Below, piece after piece: positions 891 through 20,633 of a DNA stretch of 37,745 nucleotides; position 1 is the first letter of the stretch, and every line of letters begins with the position of its first letter. The stretch comes from Baaleninema simplex PCC 7105. GTDB taxonomy: Bacteria > Cyanobacteriota > Cyanobacteriia > Cyanobacteriales > Geitlerinemataceae. The stretch covers positions 3,083,298 through 3,121,042 of the forward strand of contig NZ_KB235958.1 in the NCBI RefSeq assembly GCF_000332355.1, in the 5' to 3' direction. The notes beneath the pieces are model-generated. The model was given only the letters and a program-made list of their open reading frames with translations. It was not told the origin of the DNA and did no database searches. The position numbers were made by a program, and so were the translations under genes.

Positions 891-2211
891 CTGAGAGGGT
901 GACAACATAGCTAGACCCCCTGCCTCACAAGGGATAGAGCCTCTAGCCCTCGTTGAAAATGGAGAGATTTGTGAGGCTTCAACGCCATGAGCGCCAACAT
1001 CCAATCTCTCCAGAGCAGCAGGGATTGACTCCAAGCATAACCGGATAATCCGAGGGAAAAAACACTATGATGAGGAAAACCTTGAGGGGTCAGGTCTGAA
1101 CGACCTAAATAGGATTGGACGTGAGATTCAAGGAGACGCTGACCCGAACGAGTTGCTAACCAATAGGCTAAAGTCATGAGCAAAATGAGCGCCAAAAGTC
1201 GCGGAGGACTGACTCGAGTTGACTCAAGATTGTAGCCGCCACTTTTGCAGTCTCGGAACATCATTTCAATGCCCCAACGCGCTCTGTAAATTTGGCGAAC
1301 TAATTGAGCATCTGAGAGAGTGGTCAGCAATAACCAAGGTTCTTTCCCTCCTTTCCCTCGATAACGACGTTTCCAATAAACGCCGAGATTAAGAGCGCGA
1401 ACTGGTTCTTCTTTGTTGACATTAACGTTTTCAAAGAAGTGATACTGTCCCGGTTGAAAGCCTCGGTGTTTTAAGGCTTGGCATCGAGTCTTGGCATCCG
1501 CCACATAGGTACTTTTCTTCTGTCGCAATACAGCGTCCGCACCTCGCTTCCTGAGCCAGTCTGCCAGTTTAGCACTCTGAAATTCTCGGTCGCCTACTAC
1601 CACCACTGGATAAGGTTTTAATAGCTTCAATACCGGCGCTAATATTTTTTGCTGTTGCCTCAAGGAACTGCTGCCTAATTGGGGTAATAACTCCCAATAG
1701 ACCGGTAAAGCATGAGTCCCCCAAATTAGAGACACCATGAACAAATTCCGGTCTCTCCATTGAGTTCGGTCAAGGACGACCACCAAATATTTTCGAGACT
1801 TTAAGGTGAGTTGAGGACGCGCTCGTCGCTGTTCCCGATTGAGGTGGTTGCCGCGATATTCAGCTTTCAGCCACCTCTTGATAAGGGGAAACCATAACAA
1901 CTTGGCACTCAACTGAGGCAACTTCAGAAATCGTTGCAAGCTGGTGACGCGACTGTCGTATTTTATCGGTTGAGGAAAGAACTGCGCTAACGTCGATAAT
2001 TTGACTTGCCGATGCATTTGCAGTATCCAGACCAGCCACTTTAAGATCCCAATTTGCTTCTCATTGAGATGGATGCGCAGAAAATCTTGGTAGAATGTCG
2101 GTAGCATTTTTTTGTTGGGGTGGCCGCAAACGCCACCCTCTTTTTTGGGACTCCTCTATTCTCTCAAACAATTGTCCCGTCTGGCTTCCGTCTACCTTGT
2201 CACCCTCTCAG
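891..2211 (-). mobile_element. Complete IS4-family insertion sequence (1321 bp)
   Basis: The element is bounded by perfect 15-bp inverted repeats, CTGAGAGGGTGACAA at 891-905 and its reverse complement at 2197-2211. It is flanked by a 9-bp direct target duplication TTATTCTCA at 882-890 and 2212-2220. It carries one full-length transposase on the minus strand. The intact ends, intact transposase and perfect duplication indicate a recent, probably still mobile insertion into tnpB. I could not match it to a named IS without a search. Confidence 0.93.
911..2107 (-). CDS. IS4-family DDE transposase (398 aa)
   Basis: This is the transposase of the 891-2211 element and catalyses its cut-and-paste movement. 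An N-terminal helical region (about 1-100) is followed by the RNase-H-like DDE core: D113 in VVLDRTQW, D173 in VVVGDREF, and E281 in YRARWGIEMMFRDCK. That last motif is an exact Y-(2)-R-(3)-E-(6)-K signature (Y274, R277, E281, K288), which is diagnostic for IS4. Length is normal for the family and there is no frameshift. The ATG lies about 90 bp inside the right inverted repeat, and the stop is close to the left inverted repeat. The gene is antisense to the tnpB it interrupts. Confidence 0.95.
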   Translation of the reverse strand: MLPTFYQDFLRIHLNEKQIGILKWLVWILQMHRQVKLSTLAQFFPQPIKYDSRVTSLQRFLKLPQLSAKLLWFPLIKRWLKAEYRGNHLNREQRRARPQLTLKSRKYLVVVLDRTQWRDRNLFMVSLIWGTHALPVYWELLPQLGSSSLRQQQKILAPVLKLLKPYPVVVVGDREFQSAKLADWLRKRGADAVLRQKKSTYVADAKTRCQALKHRGFQPGQYHFFENVNVNKEEPVRALNLGVYWKRRYRGKGGKEPWLLLTTLSDAQLVRQIYRARWGIEMMFRDCKSGGYNLESTRVSPPRLLALILLMTLAYWLATRSGQRLLESHVQSYLGRSDLTPQGFPHHSVFSLGLSGYAWSQSLLLWRDWMLALMALKPHKSLHFQRGLEALSLVRQGV

Positions 2212-2220
2212 TTATTCTCA
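2212..2220. repeat. 9-bp target-site duplication of the IS4-family element (right copy)
   Basis: TTATTCTCA is identical to the left copy at 882-890. This length fits the 9-12 bp duplications known for IS4-type elements. Confidence 0.93.
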
Positions 2221-2602
2221 ATGTCTGCAAAGTTCGGTACTCAACCTCTCGAGAGCCTTCGTTAACTTCTTTGAGGGACGCGCTCGTTACCCACGATTTA
2301 AAAGTAAGCACAAACGGCAATCCCTTCAATACCCGCAAAACGTCAACTCTTACGGAGACAAATTACATCTTCCCAAGATTGGAGAGGTGTACTGTCGCGT
2401 TCATCGTTGGTTTGAGGGGACAATCAAAACCGTAACCGTCAGTCGCAACCCTGACGGTCGTTATCACGCTTCAATCCTTATCGACGACGGTTCGGAAAAA
2501 CCCGAACCGAATGCCGACGGAAAGGCCATCGGTATCGATCTGGGGTTGAAGCACTTTGCCGTGACTTCTGACGGTGAGAAATACAACAATCCCCGTCACC
2601 TC

Positions 2603-2650
2603 AACGCTTCGACTCCGCTCAGCGTTGAGTCCGAGCGGAGTCGAGGACTC
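2603..2650 (+). repeat. 48-bp in-frame palindromic insert in tnpB
   Basis: A 12-bp perfect stem (TCGACTCCGCTC at 2609-2620 against 2633-2644, 12-nt loop) sits between the family-conserved NNPRHL and KKHERNLK segments. It adds 16 codons without a stop. Palindromes of this TTCGACTCCGCTCAG type are common dispersed repeats in cyanobacteria. The boundaries are inferred from the expected uninterrupted protein. Confidence 0.7.
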
Positions 2651-2803
2651 AAAAAGCACGAGCGCAATCTCAAACGCAAACAGCGAAAACTTTCGAGGAA
2701 ACAGCAAGGGTCGAACTCTCGCCAAAAAGCCAGGCGGCTCGTGGCGCGAGTTCACAGTAAAATTGCCAACACTCGAGCCGATTTTCTCCACAAGCTATCC
2801 CGC

Positions 2804-2854
2804 TCTCTTGGTGCGCGTTCCCTAGCGCCGTGCGACGGCGCGGGGTCGCACCGC
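2804..2854 (+). repeat. 51-bp in-frame palindromic insert in tnpB
   Basis: The core is GCGCCGT-GCG-ACGGCGC, with an outer GGTGCG/CGCACC pair. The insert interrupts the conserved run LHKLSR / KIVNENQ with 17 extra codons (starting SLGARSLAP) and no frameshift. The element is GC-rich relative to its surroundings. No second copy was seen in this window. Confidence 0.65.
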
Positions 2855-3282
2855 AAGATAGTCAATGAGAACCAAGTGATTGTGGTGGAAAATCTAGCCG
2901 TGAAGAACATGGTCAGGAATCACAGCCTCGCTAAGGCAATAAGCGATGTGGGCTGGGGTATGTTTTCAACCCTGCTCAAATACAAGGCAGAGGGAGAAGG
3001 GAAGGTCTATCTAGAAGTCGATCGATTCTTCCCCAGTACTCACCTTTGCTCTGAAACGCTGTTGCCGCTCCCCAAGATGGGACTCGACGTGCGATCGTTT
3101 GAATGTCCGCAATGTGGGCAGATTCACGACCGCGACATCAATGCGGCAATCAATCTTAAAAATGAAGGCTTGCGGATATGGGCCTCGGGAACCGGGGCTT
3201 CTGCCAGTGGAGGGAATGTAAGTCCAAAGGGAGGTCGAATTCGTTCGACGCTTTCCGAGGCAATTCCCAGTGAAGCTGGAAG

Positions 3283-3322
3283 CCACTCATCAATCGCCTC
3301 GCGATGATGAGTGGTAGTTCAC
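3283..3322 (+). ncRNA. Right-end hairpin of the TnpB element, likely omegaRNA 3' end
   Basis: A perfect 10-bp stem (CCACTCATCA at 3283-3292, complement at 3305-3314, 12-nt loop) overlaps the tnpB stop codon and is followed by TAGTTCAC ending at 3322. In IS200/IS605 elements the right end carries such a subterminal hairpin, and the guide RNA of TnpB is read from the 3' end of the gene across it. The hairpin is seen directly; its role as an omegaRNA scaffold and the element end at TTCAC are inferred. Confidence 0.5.
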
Positions 3323-18529: not shown

Positions 18530-19456
18530 ATGACAAACAATACTCGCTCGATCGGGATCTTCGACAGCGGCGTCGGTGGTTTGACCGTGCTGCGGGCAGC
18601 ATACCGACAACTCCCTCACGAGTCGGTTTTGTATTTCGGCGATACGGCACGGTTGCCCTACGGCACGCGATCGCCCGAGGAAATCGTGCGGTTCGTGCGA
18701 GAAATCCTGCATTGGATGGCTCAGTGTCGGGTCAAAATGGCGATCGTTGCCTGCAACACCAGTTCGGCGCTGGCGTTGGAAACGGTGCGCGACGAATTCG
18801 ATTTTCCGATTTTGGGCTTGATTCTACCGGGAGCGAGAGCGGCCGTGCGTCGGGGCAGCCGTATCGGGGTCATCGCGACACCGGCTACGGCGAAAAGCGG
18901 CGCGTACCGTCGGGCAATTTTGGAAACGAACCCTTCGGCTCGGGTTTGGGAAATAGGCTGTCCGGAATTCGTGCCGATCGTCGAAGGAAACCGCATTCAC
19001 CATCCTCGTACTCGAGAGATCGTTCGACAGTACCTCGAACCGTTGCTCGAACACCGTATCGATACGCTGGTGTACGGTTGTACTCACTACCCCCACCTCG
19101 AACCGGTTTTACGGACGTTGCTTCCGGCGAGGGTGTCTTCGATCGATCCGGCCGAATACGTGGTAGCGGCAGCCGCCCGAGAATTGGATTTACTGGGGTT
19201 GGCAGCGGTGGCGACGCCCTACGAACATTCGGTTTCGCCGAGACACGGAACCCGCTTTTGCGTCAGCGGTTGTCCGCAAACGTTTGCGAGTTTGTCGAAG
19301 CAATGGCTCGGATTTGTCCCCGAGGTCGAAAAAATTTGGCTTCCGGCGCTCGATCGCTCCCATAATGCCGATCTCGATGAGAACGCGATCGCTCTATCCG
19401 AGTCGATCGATAGTCGGGTTTGTGGGGAACCGAAATCGGGAGACGCGATCGTGTAG
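18530..19456 (+). CDS. murI: Glutamate racemase
   Basis: This enzyme converts L-Glu to D-Glu for peptidoglycan. The start is ATG 18530 (MTNNTRSIGIFDSGVGGLTV); open frame continues upstream but without family similarity and overlapping amiC. Motifs: D12-S13 in FDSGVGG, YFGDTARLPYG, the first catalytic cysteine C75 in VACNTSSA, and the second, C184, with H186 in VYGCTHYPHLEP. The length of 308 residues includes a 25-residue low-conservation tail. It follows amiC by 61 bp on the same strand, so both may be one transcript serving the same pathway. Confidence 0.95.
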   Translation: MTNNTRSIGIFDSGVGGLTVLRAAYRQLPHESVLYFGDTARLPYGTRSPEEIVRFVREILHWMAQCRVKMAIVACNTSSALALETVRDEFDFPILGLILPGARAAVRRGSRIGVIATPATAKSGAYRRAILETNPSARVWEIGCPEFVPIVEGNRIHHPRTREIVRQYLEPLLEHRIDTLVYGCTHYPHLEPVLRTLLPARVSSIDPAEYVVAAAARELDLLGLAAVATPYEHSVSPRHGTRFCVSGCPQTFASLSKQWLGFVPEVEKIWLPALDRSHNADLDENAIALSESIDSRVCGEPKSGDAIV

Positions 19457-19494
19457 AGTCCTGCATCTCTGCTCCCTGCGGTTACCAGGAGTTT

Positions 19495-19929
19495 TGGGTT
19501 TAACGCCTCGCCCATAAGCGGGCGACTTGGTTATCATGGGGGGAACGGGAACGGTATTCAACCCGTTTAAAACCGAGCCTAAAATCCACGGCAATCGAAC
19601 CTTGAAAACTAAAGTTATGGGGTTCCGCTTGGGAAGGCTCAAGCGGGTAAAAGCTCTAAGCACTACGGACATCTCACGGTGGCGAACCGAGTTCGCCCCC
19701 CGTGTCCTCAAGTACAGGGAACCAGTATTTTAGGATTCTCAGGTACGGTAGGGCATACCGGAACCTCCTCTAAAATGGGGAAAACGCCTGGGGAGATAAA
19801 CCCCTCTGGTATTCATTGGCAACAATGAGCATTAGGGGTTGTCAGAGAACCAGGAATCCAAAGCCGTGAGGCTTGGAGAATCGCCGCCCCTTCGACTTGG
19901 CTCAGGGCAAGCCTTCTAGGGCGGTGAGT
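19495..19929 (+). ncRNA. Orphan IscB omegaRNA / HEARO RNA (predicted)
   Basis: A 430-nt non-coding stretch directly before a five-codon IscB-like start. It holds many perfect stems: 19508-19513/19520-19525 (TCGCCC), 19625-19631/19640-19646 (CCGCTTG), 19681-19686/19692-19697 (GGCGAA), an outer 19799-19805/19834-19840 (AACCCCT) enclosing 19813-19818/19823-19828 (TCATTG), 19858-19865/19870-19876 (GCC/GGC with bulge), and an outer 19884-19889/19919-19924 (CCGCCC) enclosing a CTTG/CAAG hairpin. In IscB systems the omegaRNA lies immediately upstream of iscB on the same strand, with its guide at the 5' end, as here. The stems are read directly; the family assignment is inference from position, structure density and the MSNNV start. 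No intact iscB is present. Confidence 0.6.
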
Positions 19930-20010
19930 ATGTCAAATAATGTTAAAGGAAAAAGATGTGAGCAACACGCGATCGCACTATGGTTTTCTTTGGATTCGGA
20001 AAAAAACTGA
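19930..20010 (+). pseudogene. iscB start relic (MSNNV...)
   Basis: ATG 19930 encodes MSNNV, the usual first residues of cyanobacterial IscB (RRXRR/HNH) proteins, but the family continuation is absent. The frame reads on through unrelated codons into the start of msrA and stops at 20010. This fits a deletion that removed the iscB body and left its RNA. Five residues alone are weak evidence; it depends on the omegaRNA reading upstream. Confidence 0.4.
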
Positions 20011-20633
20011 CACTACCCAAACCGCAAGACGCCTTACCGGGACGAGATACACCGATGCCCGTTCCCGACAAGCACTTCGTTCTCAAAACCCCCCTAACAC
20101 CGCCCTATCCTGATGGAATGCAGCTAGCTATGTTTGGGATGGGTTGCTTCTGGGGCGCCGAGCGTCGTTTCTGGCAACTCGACGGGGTCTATTCGACAGC
20201 GGTGGGTTACGCGGCTGGATACACCCTCAACCCCACCTACCAAGAGGTCTGTACGGGGATGACGGGACATAACGAAGTGGTGCGCGTGGTGTACGATCCC
20301 GAGGCGATCTCTTACGAGATGCTGTTGAAAACCTTTTGGGAAAGTCACGATCCCACTCAGGGAATGCGACAGGGAAACGATGTGGGAACTCAGTATCGTT
20401 CGGGAATTTACTGTTACTCGGGCGATCGACGCCGACAAGCTGAAGCTTCCCGCGACGCCTATCAGACGGAACTTAAAAAAGCCGGATACGGCGAAATTAC
20501 CACGGAAATTCTCGAAGCCCCCGAGTTTTACTTTGCGGAGGACTATCACCAACAGTATTTGGCGAAGAATCCCAACGGCTATTGCGGGCTAGGCGGAACG
20601 AACGTTTCTTGTCCGACTGGAATCGGAGTGTGA
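19980..20633 (+). CDS. msrA: Peptide-methionine (S)-S-oxide reductase
   Basis: MsrA reduces methionine-S-sulfoxide in proteins and free methionine, and protects against photo-oxidative damage. The catalytic cysteine is C56 in [10 protein letters not shown]; the C-terminal NGYCGLGG and NVSC (C202, C211) are the resolving cysteines. The start [20 protein letters not shown] fits the cyanobacterial family form with its long N-terminus. Length 217. The inferred omegaRNA element appears to have inserted into its 5' region, so its promoter may be altered. A likely terminator follows at 20788. Confidence 0.95.

Follow-up and report, generated by a model that had tools for sequence, protein, structure and literature searches.

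A probable satellite transposon of the IS608 type with a TnpB-type RNA scaffold between murI and msrA in Baaleninema simplex PCC 7105

The murI–msrA locus and the ends of the element

The window analysed here is the whole stretch of 37,745 nucleotides from contig NZ_KB235958.1 of B. simplex PCC 7105 (positions 3,083,298 to 3,121,042, forward strand). The region of interest lies between two host genes (Table 1) that we take, from their translations, to be murI upstream and msrA downstream. That sequence-only reading had described the gap between them as rich in stems and devoid of a plausible gene, and both observations stand: the ORFs and the translations of murI and msrA leave no long frame inside the element, and the folding of the strand beats chance, with a minimum free energy of −171.9 kcal/mol where shuffled sequences average −146.9 (z = −4.05; none of 100 shuffles as good). 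Its proposal that a mobile element had inserted between the two genes is likewise supported. The unit itself, placed earlier at 19495–20010, is corrected by copy alignment to the limits in Table 1, giving an element of 451 bp with no ORF.

Table 1. Features at the locus, in window coordinates
Feature	Position	Strand	Basis or score
murI (presumably glutamate racemase), 5' host gene	18530..19456	+	translation
Left cleavage/target tetranucleotide TTAC, followed by C; presumed TnpB target-adjacent motif	19482..19485	+	sequence; copies
Whole element: probable ORF-less IS200/IS605 (IS608-like) non-autonomous transposon with an orphan RNA gene	19486..19936	+	copy alignment
Left guide position (AACG) and hairpin TCGCCC/GGGCGA	19502..19525	+	sequence, alignment
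−10-like TATCAT, putative promoter, just 5' of the first RNA helix	19532..19537	+	
5' H-type pseudoknot: helix 19545-19549/19562-19566, tail helix 19552-19555/19572-19575	19545..19575	+	
5' module core (model R1): two nested covarying helices	19596..19665	+	83.1 bits, E 1.2e-13 (window also among the training sequences)
Hairpin repeat inserted into the RNA	19665..19717	+	partial matches (query 216-268), dispersed in own genome
3' module (model R2): predicted TnpB-type omegaRNA/reRNA scaffold	19741..19856	+	108.3 bits, E 6.5e-21 (window also among the training sequences)
Right end, including guide GAAT 19878-19881 and TCAA 19933-19936	19878..19936	+	sequence, alignment
Right-end hairpin with inserted dispersed repeat	19882-19889/19919-19926	+	
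Presumed guide: flank 3' of the right end, in the msrA leader	19937..19956	+	analogy with ISDra2
msrA (presumably peptide methionine sulfoxide reductase), 3' host gene	19980..20633	+	translation; ATG 19980

At least eight further long copies are present in the same genome (query positions 71–444, 79–83% identity); this count, like those of the R1 places and genomes, the R2 places and the order-wide matches given below, is a lower bound, candidates having been scored in part. All eight start directly after TTAC, end in ...GTATGTCAA and are flanked by DNA that differs on both sides. The search string for this comparison included TTAC, so what counts as evidence is its position, which coincides with the start of divergence in all eight. 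For IS608, the available part of PMC5934647 gives TTAC and TCAA as the left and right cleavage sites (CL and CR), AAAG and GAAT as the corresponding guides (GL and GR) and a preference for insertion at TTAC followed by C. Membership of the IS608 type is indicated by the TTAC and TCAA boundaries, the subterminal hairpins and the AAAG and GAAT guides met in all eight of the other long copies. The window copy fits these ends save for its left guide, which is AACG where each of the eight has AAAG. The element is multicopy in its own genome, as a non-autonomous IS200/IS605 element should be.

A second end type, with TCAT at the left and GAAA beside the left hairpin, was seen in L125, L126, L129, L135 and Microcystis copies such as L147 and L150; it fits the IS608 base-pairing rule with an altered target and is possibly a case of natural retargeting. 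Two dispersed repeats were also observed. A hairpin repeat some 50 nt long (ACGGACATCTCACGG...GTGTCC; the inserted repeat of Table 1, L013–L016 and L101) is spread through the genome, where it sits within the RNA of these elements and, at L016, in the 3' coding part of another tnpB; it is absent at the equivalent position in the relatives L107, L117 and L132. A 23-nt repeat, TTCGACTTGGCTCAGGGCAAGCC, occupies the loops of left-end and right-end hairpins, often in tandem and with the stems intact (window 19884–19924 and the left ends of L002, L008 and L009).

The sequence-only reading had attached weight to an ATG opening a frame with MSNNV, as the start of a lost iscB. The ATG is present, at 19930, and its frame runs for 26 codons (19930–20010), but it is out of frame with msrA, given its 50-nt offset from the msrA start, and its continuation is unlike IscB, whose starts in the same genome include MSNFVFVLDTN, MSNYVLVIDTN and MHVFVLDKDK. 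The 'ATG' is supplied by ATGTCAA, the right-end terminus of the element, and ATAATGTT, which comes after this terminus in the window, is similar to the msrA leader in a relative that lacks the element. In that relative (L294), the nearest family genome with a short murI–msrA gap and an MsrA that is 85% identical, the leader reads GATAATGTT...ACACGCGATCG...TATGGTTTTC, resembling the window DNA 3' of the element. MSNNV is therefore the product of joining the right-end terminus to the msrA leader. Homologues of msrA are present in all 14 family genomes (own included), and 8 of the 13 others have a murI homologue 5' of msrA with an intervening gap too short for the element. None of these eight supplies a true empty allele; the one aligned (L294) matches the window by eye at the right flank, not at the left.

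The 5' module and the covariation of both halves

The 5' half of the element carries an additional conserved domain of about 150–200 nt, absent from the TnpB loci examined. Alignment A1 of this module was built from 127 instances, which formed 49 clusters at 90%; L140, L175, L195, L233, L158, L197 and L122 were left out (truncated, contig edge, divergent or with an insertion), L123 was added (43 references) and L191 was dropped by hand, leaving 42 sequences with 70 columns and 14 pairs. The instances had been found by patterns that fix some loop or single-stranded letters and leave the paired letters mostly free, so that loop conservation is in part selected. In A1, 96.3% of the cells are paired and double-sided changes occur in 13 of the 14 pairs. 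The covariation score of 0.675 compares with 0.243 in shuffles (0 of 500 as high), and slid partners gave at most 0.107. Judged by these comparisons, the 5' module is a conserved RNA structure without a matching Rfam family; among 15 relatives searched at E ≤ 5, Rfam returned just weak unrelated or HgcC matches. R1, the model of the core, has no match in 58 TnpB, IscB and HEARO loci.

Upstream of this core, 38 sequences were found with a pseudoknot, and 36 were kept as alignment A2 after L184 (a chance match) and L269 (a long linker) had been dropped. The pseudoknot helix pairs in 173 of 180 cells, against a mean of 141 and a maximum of 152 in shuffles for which the helix offset was likewise chosen by fit. 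The tail helix of four pairs is formed in 95.8% of 144 cells; because the search itself depended in part on GGT and ACC in the pseudoknot, just the one variable pair of this helix is informative (GC 18, AU 10, CG 3, GU 1, unpaired 4; n = 36). A TAnnnT box precedes the pseudoknot in all 36 sequences (shuffled mean 20.0, maximum 28; 300 shuffles).

A pseudoknot inside a transposon could also be part of a ribozyme by which transcripts lose the element through splicing, as in IStrons, which the accessible text of PMC4227781 describes as a self-splicing group I intron joined to an insertion sequence. Rfam offers no intron family for the window region (E ≤ 10) or for the 15 relatives (E ≤ 5), and we regard the group I intron or IStron assignment as unsupported. 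The promoter-like box inside the element also speaks against it. When the flanks of 50 elements were joined (both ends recognised, 300 bases of flank, TTAC or TCAT required by the pattern), a frame of at least 150 codons spanned the joined site in 15, which is an upper limit on gene insertions. Splicing is thus a very improbable role for the 5' domain.

Alignment A3 of the 3' module started from 29 sequences, of which L135, L218, L274, L289 and L292 were dropped as mis-anchored or of another type; with the window added, 25 remained. Double-sided changes occur in 29 of its 34 pairs, a count that leans towards the R2 structure because RNAalifold derived that structure, as a consensus, from this very alignment. 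G·U pairs outnumber A·C mispairs by 37:6 and 110:11, as expected if the element strand is the RNA and not if the stems are DNA hairpins or belong to the complementary strand.

The window copy forms 13 of the 14 A1 pairs and 32 of the 34 A3 pairs. Against L002, four A1 pairs have changed, three of them in a compensatory manner and one with loss of pairing; against L003, five A3 pairs have changed, one on both sides, three on a single side and one with loss of pairing. Given the AACG guide, the two repeat insertions and the broken pairs (1 of 14 and 2 of 34), the window copy may no longer move or be used.

These data bear on another reading of such an element, in which an internally deleted TnpB element is moved by TnpA in trans and its RNA structure is merely inherited and functionless. 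The lack of an ORF, the multiple copies and a decayed frame resembling the C-terminus of TnpB would all be expected of such a dead MITE, as would the loss of the exact left guide in the window copy. However, the 5' module is found at none of the TnpB loci examined, and double-sided changes keep the pairs intact across 42 and 25 diverged sequences. Covariation of this kind is not expected of passive relics, and even between the window and L002 three of four changed A1 pairs are compensatory, with one broken. We therefore consider a functionless relic unlikely.

Relationship of the 3' module to TnpB, HEARO and HgcC

R2, a covariance model of the 25 sequences of the 3' module, matches at least 45 places genome-wide. 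In 24 of these, the start lies 15–42 nt downstream of a same-strand TnpB zinc-finger domain; another 17 follow the element's own 5' module (R1), and four do neither. At the 32 TnpB loci of the same genome that were examined, R2 matches the 3' end of tnpB at 14 and finds no match at 18, so that only some TnpBs could be partners. Two TnpB loci from two other genomes are both matched, one of them with an open tnpB frame of 432 codons and the other a remnant. R2 has no match in 24 HEARO/RRXRR loci. Its presence at tnpB 3' ends and absence from these loci identify the RNA as TnpB-type: by sequence comparison, the 3' half of the element RNA corresponds to a TnpB-type right-end RNA, an identification that we consider well supported.

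The same genome contains, on contig 5 at about 19.8–21.2 kb, a 1.39-kb element with a tnpB frame of 472 codons from stop to stop, flanked by TTAC and ending in GTATGTCAA. Its left end is 97% identical to that of copy L002 over 59 nt and its right end 81% over 176 nt. The ORF-less elements retain a decayed frame that resembles the C-terminus of TnpB, specifically the end of the TnpB encoded by this 1.39-kb element, and in the window this frame overlaps the 3' module. A coding function for the element was considered and rejected, as there is no long frame and the similarity is that of a decayed TnpB tail.

The 3' module is not universal. Eleven loci of divergent elements with the 5' module have no R2 match, namely all five loci examined from the Peptococcaceae genome CEB3 (L158, L197, L315–L317) together with L169, L214, L274, L282, L289 and L290, whereas the 11 other loci in the same comparison, some of them training sequences, are all matched. 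L158, L169, L214, L274, L282, L289 and L290 were seen to keep the 5' module with another 3' part, some ending in TCAC for TCAA.

The genome is rich in RNA-guided transposon nucleases, with 117 match rows for the TnpB zinc finger (and 5 for the Y1 transposase, PF01797, of which 4 exceed the cut-off), 36 for RRXRR (PF14239), which we take to be a domain of IscB and IsrB, and 25 for HEARO. Elsewhere in the window, far from the element, a tnpB-like ORF lies at 2120–3307 on the + strand with a zinc-finger match at 2954–3157; R2 does not match it.

The sequence-only reading had proposed an orphan HEARO RNA, the omegaRNA of IscB, left behind when an inserted element lost its iscB ORF. What survives of this is a nuclease-less orphan RNA of the omega type in a mobile element, and the abundance of RRXRR and HEARO matches and the MSN start of some IscB proteins in this genome speak in its favour. 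The IscB identity does not hold. No HEARO match was obtained at E ≤ 10 in 19300–20100, and in the genome-wide search 23 of the 25 HEARO rows exceed the gathering score used as the cut-off and none falls on the window element. The gene directly 3' of the element is msrA and not iscB, and none of 119 related cores, among which 73 have full flanks, has an iscB within 1.5 kb. The 3' module occurs at tnpB 3' ends and at 0 of 24 HEARO/RRXRR loci, and MSNNV is accounted for by the junction described above. Loss of an ORF at this particular site is not indicated either, ORF-less copies being the usual form in the relatives examined. With no HEARO match and no examined relative with iscB downstream, the HEARO/IscB assignment was rejected, and we give it next to no credence.

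The assignment to TnpB rather than IscB also changes the side on which a guide would be sought. In the portion of PMC8612924 at hand, the ISDra2 reRNA comprises the tnpB 3' end, the right end and about 16 nt of flank as the guide, and the target motif of the transposon is also the motif of the TnpB nuclease. Since the 3' half is a TnpB-type right-end RNA, the polarity is reversed relative to the earlier proposal, which took the guide from 19460–19495; by analogy, the window copy would draw its guide from the 3' flank, which starts at 19937.

The HgcC family (RF00062) aligns with the 3' module and right end of the window (19749–19949) at 18.9 bits, for a gathering score of 50. Membership was not accepted, the match being far under the threshold and traced to the right-end module. 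HgcC also aligns below threshold with L107 and L108. Since the terminus of its consensus resembles an IS605 right end, HgcC may itself be a TnpB-type omegaRNA.

Distribution, proposed function and comparison with known systems

R1 was found at no fewer than 19 places in the B. simplex genome, the window included, and in at least 54 of 386 genomes of the phylum, 53 of them from the same order (own included) and one from another; it has no match in the five other genomes of the same family among those listed. In a search of the order, at least 67 of 243 genomes matched, many by the right end alone. Outside the phylum, R1 matches three places in a Peptococcaceae genome. A search with a DNA pattern gave 99 stretches in named genomes, and among the 80 matches listed 77 are cyanobacterial, two are from Peptococcaceae CEB3 and one is from Rhizobium. 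On this last contig (L140, Rhizobium sp. LE19-388.1D), a 40-nt stretch by the element is identical to that in Microcystis L163 and L175, and the contig is therefore probably a cyanobacterial contamination of the metagenome-assembled genome. No phage matches the element, viral contigs have no match to the 5'-module pattern and plasmids show right-end matches of 36 nt alone, in two Trichormus records.

The element has no tnpB in cis. Profiles made from the TnpB, IscB and TnpA proteins of the same genome detected no tnpB, iscB or tnpA within 1.5 kb of 119 element cores (L107–L234), 73 of which have at least 1.4 kb of sequence on both sides. The closest tnpB to any of these cores is 1.7 kb away, and in 20 further regions one tnpB was present, about 600 nt downstream.

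The explanation that we consider probable is that this is a non-autonomous, IS608-like satellite transposon of the IS200/IS605 group, whose RNA gene has the scaffold of a TnpB omegaRNA and is used with TnpA and TnpB in trans. The element would carry a single RNA gene, in which a promoter-like −10 box is followed by a 5' domain made up of a pseudoknot and nested helices and then by a 3' omegaRNA/reRNA scaffold whose last part is the right end. TnpA supplied in trans would move the element at TTAC sites, and an RNA reading through the right end into the flank would load a TnpB encoded elsewhere in the genome, a supply that is assumed here. This TnpB could then cut the TTAC-flanked donor site after excision, and repair from the sister copy would restore the element. 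A retention model of this kind, with TnpB cleavage of the vacated donor site followed by repair, is proposed for ISDra2 in the available portion of PMC8612924. Most likely, then, the element makes its own TnpB guide RNA, a function that we infer.

In this scheme the 5' domain would be a leader expressed from the promoter in place of the tnpB message, and it may contribute to the stability, the processing or the regulation of the omegaRNA. As far as PMC10278001 is accessible, TnpB itself trims the 5' side of its RNA and the region of the tnpB mRNA upstream of the omegaRNA can inhibit cleavage; possible roles of the 5' domain are therefore those of a leader that is cleaved off, a stabilising element or a regulator. 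It could also serve another purpose, its counterpart being absent from the TnpB elements examined. The inhibition reported in that source, together with a 5' domain confined to these elements and kept by divergent elements in which R2 misses the 3' part, could point to an RNA whose target is TnpB or the host and which does not serve as a guide, being either a decoy titrating TnpB or a regulator with an active 5' domain. A pure decoy, however, would not need the right end and 3' scaffold that the window's group keeps in the arrangement of TnpB elements, and we regard this role as quite unlikely.

If the satellite reading is correct, a guide RNA has been kept and its nuclease discarded, which would show that TnpB is open to sharing and exploitation in trans. 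This would help to explain the persistence of ORF-less IS605 elements and would provide a natural stand-alone omegaRNA gene. The wider proposal is that cyanobacteria, and at least one Peptococcaceae genome, harbour satellite transposons of a class not described before, in which a protein-free element would express a promoter-driven TnpB guide RNA for use in trans and parasitise the resident IS605 transposase and nuclease, with a new 5' domain freeing the omegaRNA from its own mRNA. We advance it tentatively, as a possibility with somewhat less than an even prospect.

The OMEGA guide RNAs known for TnpB derive from the mRNA of the nuclease gene itself. The element resembles the TnpB omegaRNA/reRNA of ISDra2 and AmaTnpB in that its 3' scaffold ends with the right end at TCAA, its module also lies at tnpB 3' ends in the same genome and a 3'-flank guide is expected; it differs in having no cis tnpB, a promoter-like box of its own and an extra 5' domain. 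With IS608, a Y1-transposase element, it shares TTAC and C at the left, TCAA at the right and guide tetranucleotides by subterminal hairpins, but it has neither tnpA nor tnpB, the left guide is mutated in the window copy and a sister group has TCAT with GAAA. Compared with the HEARO/IscB omegaRNA (RF02033), it has in common a structured, transposon-associated RNA of the RNA-guided nuclease type, and differs in lacking a covariance match and iscB and in the opposite side on which the guide is expected. HgcC is without the 5' module and matches the element far under threshold.

The PATEs of haloarchaea are non-autonomous IS200/IS605 derivatives. Like such MITEs, the element is short, ORF-less, bounded by IS605-type ends and presumably mobilised in trans, and unlike them its interior is a long RNA that covaries across many cyanobacterial genera. 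The accessible parts of the papers on Microcystis and Anabaena MITEs (PMC11448079, PMC3542288) do not describe it, and the 187-nt Microcystis MITE reported there has ISL3-type repeats. ORF-less IS605 elements with a dedicated omegaRNA were not found in the open PMC literature, coverage of subscription papers and bioRxiv being sparse. Both halves are thus of known kinds, IS605-type MITEs on the one hand and the TnpB omegaRNA on the other, and what appears to be new is that the two are combined, together with a new 5' RNA domain that is conserved.
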